Positions 9,299-43,946 of a DNA stretch of 64,000 bases are shown in pieces. The DNA is from Peribacillus loiseleuriae (lineage in GTDB: Bacteria; Bacillota; Bacilli; Bacillales; DSM-1321), in contig NZ_LFZW01000001.1 of NCBI RefSeq assembly GCF_001183985.1, positions 4,369,621-4,433,620 on the forward strand. The letters run 5' to 3'. The notes beneath the pieces were generated by a model. It saw nothing but the letters and a program-made list of their open reading frames with translations, did no database searches and was not told where the DNA came from. The first letter of the stretch is position 1, and each line of letters starts with the position of its first letter. Position numbers and translations under genes: made by a program.

Positions 9299-9463
9299 CT
9301 CTTATCGTTCAAGGGTTTTTTACCTTGCTCAGGTTAGCACCAACGCCAAAATTATTAAAAGAGAATTGCTTTTAATTGCAATAAATCTTTCGCAAACTTT
9401 CTACACTTCGGCAGGTTGCTGGGTTTCTTAGGGCCTGTCCCTCCACCAACTCGGGATAAGAGA
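9299..9463 (-). ncRNA. SAM-I (S-box) riboswitch of metK
   Basis: On the minus strand the leader shows the S-box hallmarks in order: the P1 strand CTCTTATC, GGTGGAGGGAC, GGCCCTAAGAAACCCAGCAA, a variable P3 arm, GGTGCTAACCTGAGCAAGG, and the closing P1 strand GATAAGAG. This aptamer binds SAM and favours the terminator at 9247-9276. Confidence 0.96.
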
Positions 9464-26226: not shown

Positions 26227-27051
26227 TTATGCTTGAAGAGCTTTTTGTAATGATTTTTTCATTGATTCTACAAAGTTCTGACGTGCTTCAGCAGATAATT
26301 CTAATAGGGAAAGATAAGGGTTTAAATCTTCCAATTCGACTAATAAAAGCTCCCCTTGTTCATTCCGACAAGCATCAACTCGTTGAATTCCCCAGTCAAG
26401 ATTATTCCATTCAATAAATCGTTTAGCAAAAGTTAAATCTTCTTCAGTAGGTACATATTCTTTTAATTCCCATCTTTTCTCCTTATCTGGTGCATAAAGA
26501 GCATACTGAAATTCTTTATCGATAAAATAAAATGAGACCTCATACTCAAAGTTGATAAAGGGTTGTACCAATGTGTTTTTTGATTTTGAATCAACTTTCT
26601 CTCCCAATTCATCTTTCGTGACAAATTCCATACCGATAGAATCTGCCCCATCTTTCGGCTTTACAATATACGTGTCTACATTGGGCAGCTTATCTAAAAA
26701 ATCAAGAGTATCAATAGTTGGAATAACAGGAAAATGAGCATTCGTTAGTTCAATTAAGTATTCCTTCCCGTTCATATCAGCCTTGCCATTAAATGAATTA
26801 AATGTTTTTAAATACTTCGAAACAATTCGGTTACGGAACGCTTCATATTTATCTTTAAAATTTGCGACTGGACCTGCATTTCGAAAGATAATTAAGTCAG
26901 CGTTATTTTCAAATGCTTCGATGTCTTCAGGATGACAGATGACTAAATGAAAATCTTCTCTCAGCTTCGAAGTAAGGAACAAATCCTCCTCATAATAATT
27001 TCTTCCTTTTGCTTCATAGTATAAATCTGTTACGAATAATAGTGTTTTCAT
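26227..27051 (-). CDS. ATP-grasp-fold ligase, T-box controlled
   Basis: The ATG at 27051 gives 274 aa (MKTLLFVTDLYYEAKG). The N-terminal third is a pre-ATP-grasp domain. YIVKPKDGADSIGMEFV near residue 140 is the nucleotide-binding lysine/glycine-rich loop, LVQPFINFEYEVSFYFI is the next ATP-grasp strand, and GIQRVDACR...LLLVELEDLNPYLSL near 230-255 holds the metal-binding acidic residues. These enzymes join a carboxylate to an amine through an acyl phosphate, as in RimK and amino-acid ligases. A T-box leader upstream ties expression to an uncharged tRNA. No partner gene is adjacent. The substrate is unknown. Confidence 0.82.
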   Translation of the reverse strand: MKTLLFVTDLYYEAKGRNYYEEDLFLTSKLREDFHLVICHPEDIEAFENNADLIIFRNAGPVANFKDKYEAFRNRIVSKYLKTFNSFNGKADMNGKEYLIELTNAHFPVIPTIDTLDFLDKLPNVDTYIVKPKDGADSIGMEFVTKDELGEKVDSKSKNTLVQPFINFEYEVSFYFIDKEFQYALYAPDKEKRWELKEYVPTEEDLTFAKRFIEWNNLDWGIQRVDACRNEQGELLLVELEDLNPYLSLLELSAEARQNFVESMKKSLQKALQA

Positions 27052-27110
27052 TACGCCTTCGCCTACTTTACATTTTATTTTCATTGATTTAAAAAGGATG
27101 AAAAAAACAA

Positions 27111-27390
27111 AAAATCTCGTCTCATTAAGAGACAAGATTTGAACTCGCGGTACCACTCTTGTTTAATGAATAACTCACCTACTGCTAAGCAATAAATAAG
27201 CCTATCATTACTCTTGACCAACGTACAATCATACGCTGGCCCTCTAACGGTGGAATTCGATAAAGCTTACTAATCATTCAGCTTTACTTCTCAGAGAGGA
27301 TTTTCCGTTATAACCTGAACACTAGCTTTCAGCAAATCACCAGCTCTCTTTGGAACAGGACTTATAACGTACTCTTTCTCTTCACATAAT
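27111..27390 (-). ncRNA. T-box riboswitch upstream of the ATP-grasp gene
   Basis: On the minus strand the leader shows an AGTA box in AAGAGTACG, a helix CGTTATAA/TTATAACG, a CTGGTGATTTGCTG distal region, a specifier loop, and the conserved T-box AAGAGTGGTACCGCG at 27146-27160. A terminator follows, AAATCTTGTCTC/GAGACGAGATTTTTT at 27111-27140. In the specifier loop GAAAATC, the triplet after GAA is AAT (Asn), but the following base is C rather than the usual purine, so this reading is tentative. Confidence 0.92.
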
Positions 27391-27533
27391 TTTAAATAGA
27401 TAGTTAATTTCAATATATATTACGTCAGTCTCAAAATAAAATCAATAGAAGTAAAAGGCAAATGTTTATATCTCTTCTCTTACTAACCTTCCCCGCTAGC
27501 TTAATAAGGATTACTATTTCTTCTAATCTTTCT

Positions 27534-36252: not shown

Positions 36253-36886
36253 AAAGCAAGACTCCTTTGATTTAGTATAAGACTATTATATCCTTACAAG
36301 AACATCTATACCATTTTTATAAAGGAGTTGCTCCGCAATCGGGCCAAATTGCGGTGCGATACGTTTCTATCCTAACTTGAGAATGGTCACATTACTCAGA
36401 TAAAAGTTAGACAATTCCTTCAGGGATTGAAGGGTTATATCGAAGAGTCAAATGATAGAGTAACGCCTTGAAGGGCTCTCTCTTAGTCGAATAGCACTTG
36501 ATTTAGTAAGAATGATCGTGTTATAAGCTCGGTGAAAAGGGAGCTATAACTTCAAACCCTTACCTATCTGTATGAACAAGGTCCCAAAGTATCACATGAA
36601 TACTCTATACAAAGCTAGTTAACATAAAGCCCATTTCAGGAAGTAATTATACTAAAAACCCCTTGAGCACCAAGGGGTTTAACGTCTTTTTTTATTGTTT
36701 GTGTATGATTTTATACATCGTTGGTACATCAACGTTTTCGGCTTCTGAAGAAACCTCTAAACTGCATAAAAAAGCTAGGTTTATACAAATAAAAAGAGAC
36801 ACTTCCTCTAATCCCTCTCCCTGGTATCGGCCCCACCTACGCCAGATACTATGACAGCCACACATGCTATCCAACCCAGTAATCAC
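36253..36886. other. Non-coding stretch with a terminator-like hairpin
   Basis: TTGCTCCGCAATC and a nearby ATTGCGGTGCG form an imperfect inverted repeat near 36326-36358. A strong hairpin, AAACCCCTTG/CAAGGGGTTT at 36656-36680, is followed by a T run. No convincing gene is seen; the stretch borders the integrase remnant and may be element debris. Confidence 0.5.
36656..36680 (+). terminator. Perfect 10-bp hairpin with T run
   Basis: AAACCCCTTG and CAAGGGGTTT pair around AGCAC. A run of seven T follows after AACGTC. No intact gene lies directly upstream. Confidence 0.65.
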
Positions 36887-43786: not shown

Positions 43787-43815
43787 GAATGTTTATATTC
43801 AAGAATTATCCACCT

Positions 43816-43919
43816 TCTTATCTACGGAATTGTTAAAATTCCTCTGAAATTGGCACCGGGCATGATATGCTGGTTGCCGAGGCCTCACAGGGTCAGTCCC
43901 TCCGCCTCTCTCGATAAGA
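43816..43919 (-). ncRNA. Orphan SAM-I (S-box) riboswitch
   Basis: On the minus strand all S-box elements are present: CTTATCGAGAGAGG, CGGAGGGACTGACCC, GAGGCCTCGGCAACC, an AGCATATCATGCCC arm, GGTGCCAATTTC, a GGAATTTTAACAATTCC P4 hairpin, and the closing GATAAG. A terminator follows. No methionine or cysteine gene lies downstream, only repeat B2 and a frameshifted aldo/keto reductase. Confidence 0.93.
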
Positions 43920-43946
43920 AAAGTTTCAATTATTAAACTATTTATA

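Follow-up and report, generated by a model that had tools for sequence, protein, structure and literature searches.

What does a stand-alone ATP-grasp ligase do under the control of a riboswitch that senses tRNA, and which tRNA does that riboswitch read? The question is raised by a locus of the soil bacterium Peribacillus loiseleuriae in which a T-box leader precedes a gene for a 274-aa protein, within the 64,000-nucleotide stretch of DNA that was analysed here as a whole (hereafter, the window). Genes behind T-boxes are switched on when uncharged tRNA accumulates, as set out in the excerpts of PMC7583486, and the specifier is reported, in the excerpted text of PMC2494555, to have agreed with the function of the gene wherever that function had been verified. 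We asked which amino acid the leader of this locus specifies, how closely leader and gene are linked, and what the enzyme may accomplish for the cell.

The T-box leader and its parts

Comparison with the Rfam T-box covariance model RF00230, the check named in the original prediction, yields a full-length match (model positions 1-219 of 219) that scores 119.6 bits where 93 are required (E 6.9e-26, 64-kb window searched). This match and a 12-pair terminator bear out the prediction of a complete T-box with a competing terminator ahead of a stand-alone 274-aa ATP-grasp gene, and the predicted coordinates were correct to within 4 bases. From the upstream end of the leader to the gene, the features are as follows.

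27386-27413, minus strand: weak promoter-like site, TTGAAA-16-AATTAT (9/12 match)
27125-27394, minus strand: T-box leader, a tRNA-sensing riboswitch (RF00230)
27299-27301, minus strand: specifier codon AUC for isoleucine, ATC in the DNA (leader alignment)
27216-27241, minus strand: extra hairpin ahead of Stem III (folding of a 64-nt stretch)
27152-27155, minus strand: T-box bulge UGGU, whose expected partner is the tRNA 3' end ACCA (RF00230 alignment)
27112-27140, minus strand: intrinsic terminator, the expected competitor of the antiterminator (12-pair stem, loop of 5, T run)
26227-27051, minus strand: stand-alone gene of a predicted ATP-grasp ligase, 274 aa (ORF and fold prediction)

The 5' half of the terminator stem overlaps the 3' end of the RF00230 match. 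The terminator scan found one terminator where 0.6 were expected in shuffled sequences, and the promoter scan scarcely exceeded shuffles (10 sites found, mean of 6.3). The 64-nt stretch with the extra hairpin folds at -18.6 kcal/mol (z -2.6); the hairpin region can be aligned with most other copies of the leader and is not intact in one of them (L056). Two more stretches of the leader, one running through the terminator and the other lying over the antiterminator, are no more structured than shuffles (z -0.4 and 0.2, respectively).

Several other RNA elements were detected along the way. In the window, two SAM riboswitches (9299-9462 and 43815-43920, minus strand) score over the Rfam cut-off, and so does a Group II intron D1-D4 match (36427-36550). 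The host genome contains 26 T-box matches, of which 21 exceed the cut-off. A T-box match at G000:C1:706705-706952 (L022) scores 90.1 bits, just below the cut-off of 93; by eye, it has a possible TGG (Trp) specifier, and an aldo/keto-reductase-like ORF lies about 0.5 kb downstream.

The specifier codon

The specifier had originally been read as AAT, for asparagine, followed by a base described as atypical; the asparagine reading is not supported. In an alignment of 23 rows of ATP-grasp-gene leaders, 18 of them distinct, the specifier motif takes the form GAA-N-ATC, with A, G or T at N. ATC is constant in all 18 distinct leaders and the base before it varies, some leaders having GATC or TATC, so that AAT is not conserved and the true codon is AUC (27301-27299, minus strand). 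A second count, over loci from genomes of the family and one locus from another family, likewise gives ATC in 14/14 intact copies. The base after ATC is C in the leader of the window and A in the other 17 distinct leaders; the same C is present in 5/6 of the similar leaders that precede ileS2.

These similar leaders were collected by searching 397 genomes of the order with the leader of one homologous locus (L052) as the query. Thirty loci were kept, with two similarly ranked leader matches lying outside this set; six are the ATP-grasp gene's own leaders, and same-strand motifs assign 18 of the others to brnQ and six to ileS2. The ATC specifier is present in all 24 brnQ and ileS2 leaders, UGGU is present where the motif was found (23/24), and identity to the L052 leader is about 70-79% at the DNA level, mostly in the first ~176 bases. 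These Bacillales leaders differ from the one analysed here in the genes they precede, which encode a branched-chain amino acid transporter or isoleucyl-tRNA synthetase instead of an ATP-grasp ligase.

The tRNA ends point the same way. Of 97 tRNA matches, 30 were taken up as loci; in these, with counts that overlap between loci, tRNA-Ile(GAU) ends in ACCA, with discriminator base A73, and tRNA-Asn(GUU) ends in GCCA, with G73, so that UGGU pairs fully with tRNA-Ile. Given that wobble is permitted at that bulge position, according to the excerpted description of TBDB (PMC7778990), UGGU alone would not exclude asparagine, but the conserved ATC codon does.

The other T-boxes of the host genome are of little help in this choice. 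Nineteen of the 26 precede a gene that can be named by eye, namely, tyrS, leuA (twice), ileS2, ileS1, serS, hisS, leuS, valS, ilvB, trpE (two tandem leaders), cysS, proB, proC, glyQ, pheS, alaS and thrS, and a fitting specifier codon is readable in all 19; the remaining seven were left out of this count. The codon directly follows GAA in some of these leaders and comes one or more bases later in others. Because these codons were read with the gene known and the spacing from GAA is variable, they do not by themselves decide between AAT and ATC. The ilvB leader carries a Leu codon, as is typical of leaders of ilv-leu operons.

Taken together, the leader is almost certainly a T-box that senses tRNA-Ile. 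That it senses asparagine tRNA via AAU is highly improbable: AAT can indeed be read one base upstream in the window, directly after GAA, a spacing found in other host T-boxes, and UGGU could wobble-pair with G73 of tRNA-Asn, but the invariant ATC and that same G73 led us to reject this specificity, against which the kinship with the brnQ and ileS2 leaders also counts.

Distribution and mobility of the leader and the gene

The set of named homologous loci numbers 35. Of the 14 with at least 85% identity, 13 carry a T-box that exceeds the cut-off; of the 21 with at most 77% identity, none does (for L062, just 255 bases upstream were available). The exception in the first group (L048) is 91% identical and has no leader, and the DNA in common extends upstream only to about 33-44 bases ahead of the start codon. 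The family sample of 43 genomes contains 13 intact copies of the gene, each preceded by a T-box, and no T-box over the cut-off accompanies the broken second copies in G028 and G030 or the fragment in G008. The check named in the original prediction, a search for such leaders upstream of homologues, is thus positive for nearly all close homologues, including every intact family copy, and negative for the more distant ones; since homologues of at most 77% identity are devoid of the leader, the isoleucine link belongs to one clade and not to the ATP-grasp family as a whole.

The gene is sparsely distributed. In the sample of the order, 7/397 genomes have any match, of which six are intact, all six with the leader; in the sample of the phylum, 2/398 genomes match at E 1e-40 or better, one of these being the window's own. 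A Peribacillus butanolivorans locus (L075) also carries the ATP-grasp gene. In a tree of the leaders, which is weak, 14 of 15 ATP-grasp-gene leaders group together (support 0.85), with the window's own leader beside an outgroup; the same tree places LeuS among the brnQ leaders and ValS beside the leader of the window and so settles neither an ileS2 nor a brnQ origin.

When the Lysinibacillus locus is compared with those of Ureibacillus, Caryophanon and Peribacillus huizhouensis, similar DNA, 93-94% identical, extends from ~45-65 bases before the T-box to the end of the gene; in two other loci, the similarity reaches up to ~32 bases past the stop codon. The 3-kb flanks of those pairs contain no other same-strand match at E 1e-10 or better. 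Close relatives, for example L055-L057, have flanking genes in common. Because the similarity is confined to leader and gene, the two travel together, moving between genera as a unit of ~1.2 kb.

Remnants of such units were also found. The host genome harbours a relic (L141:3296-3525; G000:C1:849795-850024) in which a T-box with no Stem I similarity that can be recognised leads directly into 26 codons similar to the last part of the ATP-grasp gene (65% identity, E 2e-4); an EamA-like transporter gene comes next. A regulon that includes the EamA-like gene was considered and rejected because of these 26 codons, its leader being a relic of a deleted second copy of the ATP-grasp gene. In G041, a T-box remnant (L140:14215-14342, minus strand) aligns with the L052 leader along 134 columns at 79% identity, and there is no ATP-grasp gene behind it.

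Among the more distant homologues, those with 74% identity occur in two IMG/VR contigs, and one with 77% identity is found in Clostridium puniceum near integrase-, HNH- and terminase-like ORFs, recognised by eye; a neighbour ORF of this locus that was compared with Pfam gave no match. Plasmid homologues come from Paraclostridium, Streptomyces and Deinococcus (6 records), and none was detected in 50,697 phage records. Among such ORFs beside some homologues, likewise named by eye, a family search gave a sub-cut-off match to AAA_19 for the large-subunit-like terminase ORF and nothing for the small-subunit-like one. No T-box over the cut-off was found at either IMG/VR locus, in the four plasmid regions scanned or at the Clostridium locus. 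The ORFs around the Streptomyces homologues, read by script in regions without annotation, offered no lead; the defence library PADLOC gave no match, and PHROG gave one at E 0.24.

The two IMG/VR loci (L157:4750-5000 and L158:3400-3645) have ~150 bases before the ATP-grasp gene in common, including a GC-rich, hairpin-like part in which the loop differs. This stretch, for which an Rfam search returned no match, could be another regulatory RNA.

The ligase and its possible role

The protein matches Pfam ATP-grasp_3 (PF02655) at 22.2 bits, just under the gathering score of 23.2, and a search of solved structures with the single sequence gave a chance match only. An AlphaFold2 model built from 27 sequences (pLDDT 90.8, pTM 0.89) predicts with confidence an ATP-grasp fold that spans the whole chain (Z up to 22.5 over residues 2-273). 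The residues K131, E171 and R224 and, near the C terminus, D226, E239, E241 and N244, candidates for ATP/metal binding, are invariant in the 27 sequences, as is YYEED near the N terminus, and the dN/dS values of 0.05-0.14 against 8 homologues indicate that the protein is under purifying selection.

The closest fold is that of DcsG, the D-cycloserine synthetase (PDB 6jil; Foldseek E 4e-16; Z 22.5, rmsd 3.1, 261 residues aligned), which is also the sole PDB profile match up to E 1 (E 3e-4) and has the segment RVD..R...G.....E.E...P.L.L in common with our protein. Nevertheless, identity is only ~20%, and by the NCBIfam equivalog NF058666 the protein is not a DcsG (22.1 bits with a cut-off of 360). 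Next by Z come RimK (20.4), LysX (20.4), LysX/ArgX (20.1), synapsin (19.8), glutathione synthetase (19.1) and Ddl (18.6), where matches no more than 1 Z apart count as tied. RimK, which adds Glu to ribosomal protein S6, and LysX/ArgX, which act on LysW derivatives, have the same short ATP-grasp architecture (Z about 20) but are 13-17% identical to the protein. Of the comparisons originally proposed, that with RimK shows a similar fold; BacD-type L-amino-acid ligases are absent from the 50 matches listed for each fold search, and the protein may yet be of that type. Judging from the model, the protein is very probably an amide/peptide-type ATP-grasp ligase.

Gene neighbourhoods provide few clues. 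In the 35 named loci, no cluster of neighbours extends over more than 4 loci, excluding the ATP-grasp gene itself and its antisense ORFs; the 4-locus neighbour is a PhzF-like gene, and three of its four loci are close relatives. No conserved isoleucine enzyme or exporter and no conserved neighbour pointing to resistance was found beside the gene in these loci. A Rid-family gene follows it in Zunongwangia and Galbibacter (in the latter, assigned by likeness), and an LL-diaminopimelate-type aminotransferase gene in two Bacillus loci; each of these neighbours is found in at least 2 of the 35 loci, in loci without a T-box. In two flavobacterial genera (L071 and L074, 3000-6700), the order is ATP-grasp, Rid-family, zinc alcohol dehydrogenase, MarR-GNAT and GNAT-like genes; a family check covered three genes at L071.

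By the established T-box mechanism, uncharged tRNA-Ile(GAU) would pair with AUC and UGGU and stabilise the antiterminator, letting transcription proceed into the ATP-grasp gene, and the terminator would form when tRNA-Ile is charged. The gene would then be on under isoleucine starvation or IleRS inhibition. The enzyme would activate a carboxylate with ATP, join it to an amine and remedy the lack of Ile-tRNA; the likeliest way would be to inactivate the responsible compound, either a toxic mimic of isoleucine or a substance that inhibits isoleucyl-tRNA synthetase. Since the gene should be on when charged tRNA-Ile is short, the enzyme probably benefits the cell during a failure of isoleucine tRNA charging, and since an enzyme that consumes isoleucine would run contrary to T-box logic, we rank a protective role first. 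The entire explanation, in which a tRNA-Ile T-box drives a RimK/LysX/DcsG-type ligase that relieves an Ile-tRNA shortage, is the best we can offer and a tentative one; that the enzyme protects against agents causing depletion of charged tRNA-Ile is put forward more tentatively still. With modest confidence, we place protection ahead of a captured, unrelated gene and of isoleucine supply, which are close behind, and these ahead of an isoleucine-ligating enzyme.

The evidence for protection is circumstantial. It comprises a single gene that is sporadic, mobile and repeatedly lost; homologues in IMG/VR contigs and on plasmids; one homologue that adjoins a CatB/Vat-like acetyltransferase gene; and the kinship of the leader with those before ileS2, which encodes the mupirocin-resistant IleRS type (type assigned by eye; resistance from the excerpts of PMC10485003). 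The acetyltransferase gene, located beside one IMG/VR copy, scores 215 bits against chloram_CatB, for which the cut-off is 350, and it is a single case, at a locus without a T-box. The lack of a T-box over the cut-off at homologues of at most 77% identity, and of any match in PADLOC or the phage records, also speaks against protection. Bacteria can contain IleRS1 together with mupirocin-resistant IleRS2, according to the excerpts of the same paper, which does not use the word T-box. A joint response with ileS2 was rejected: in the order sample, 1/6 genomes with an intact gene and leader have ileS2 (E 1e-150 or better), compared with 85/397 overall, which is no association. A mobile cassette for a new, self-inducing type of resistance to IleRS inhibitors or isoleucine antimetabolites, in which the tRNA-Ile riboswitch would detect poisoned isoleucyl-tRNA charging and induce a ligase that inactivates the poison, is an unlikely, if conceivable, outcome.

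The strongest rival, itself improbable, is that the mobile gene acquired its isoleucine T-box by capture, as a starvation switch that was ready for use, and serves a function unrelated to isoleucine. The absence of the leader from all 21 homologues of at most 77% identity, the leaderless L048, the grouping of 14/15 leaders in the weak tree, as after a single capture, and the IMG/VR and plasmid homologues all speak for capture; against it stand the conservation of the leader, with its invariant ATC, across different insertion sites, and the agreement of specifier and gene in every function-verified case of the excerpts cited at the outset.

Slightly less likely is that the enzyme helps to supply isoleucine, through biosynthesis or salvage, like other T-box genes. 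Similar leaders serve genes of isoleucine charging and uptake (ileS2 and brnQ), and Rid proteins, encoded next to the gene in Zunongwangia and Galbibacter, act on an isoleucine-synthesis intermediate; the aminotransferase gene in the two Bacillus loci would also fit. However, these neighbours belong to loci without a T-box, the gene is sporadic in the order, and isoleucine synthesis is not known to include an ATP-grasp step.

The view taken in the original prediction, that the ligase uses or makes an amino acid, perhaps a dipeptide or an amide, would here mean an isoleucine-containing product with isoleucine as a substrate, and appears the most doubtful of these. The leader is specific for isoleucine, and amino acids serve as substrates for ligases with the RimK/LysX/DcsG/Ddl fold; yet a gene that is on when Ile-tRNA is scarce would worsen the shortage by spending isoleucine, which is not the expected direction, and the neighbourhood shows no conserved isoleucine enzyme or exporter, the EamA-like gene being better explained by the deleted second copy.

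Whichever of these roles applies, the T-box regulon gains a new member, an ATP-grasp enzyme without an explained role; a full-text search of open-licence PMC papers found none that combines T-box and ATP-grasp, and a prior sighting elsewhere is possible. T-box leaders tell much about the function of the genes behind them, and here the leader supplies a specific clue, isoleucine tRNA charging, for a ligase family that has no name. A protective role would make it a new form of inducible resistance, and a metabolic one would link an extra ligase step to isoleucine.
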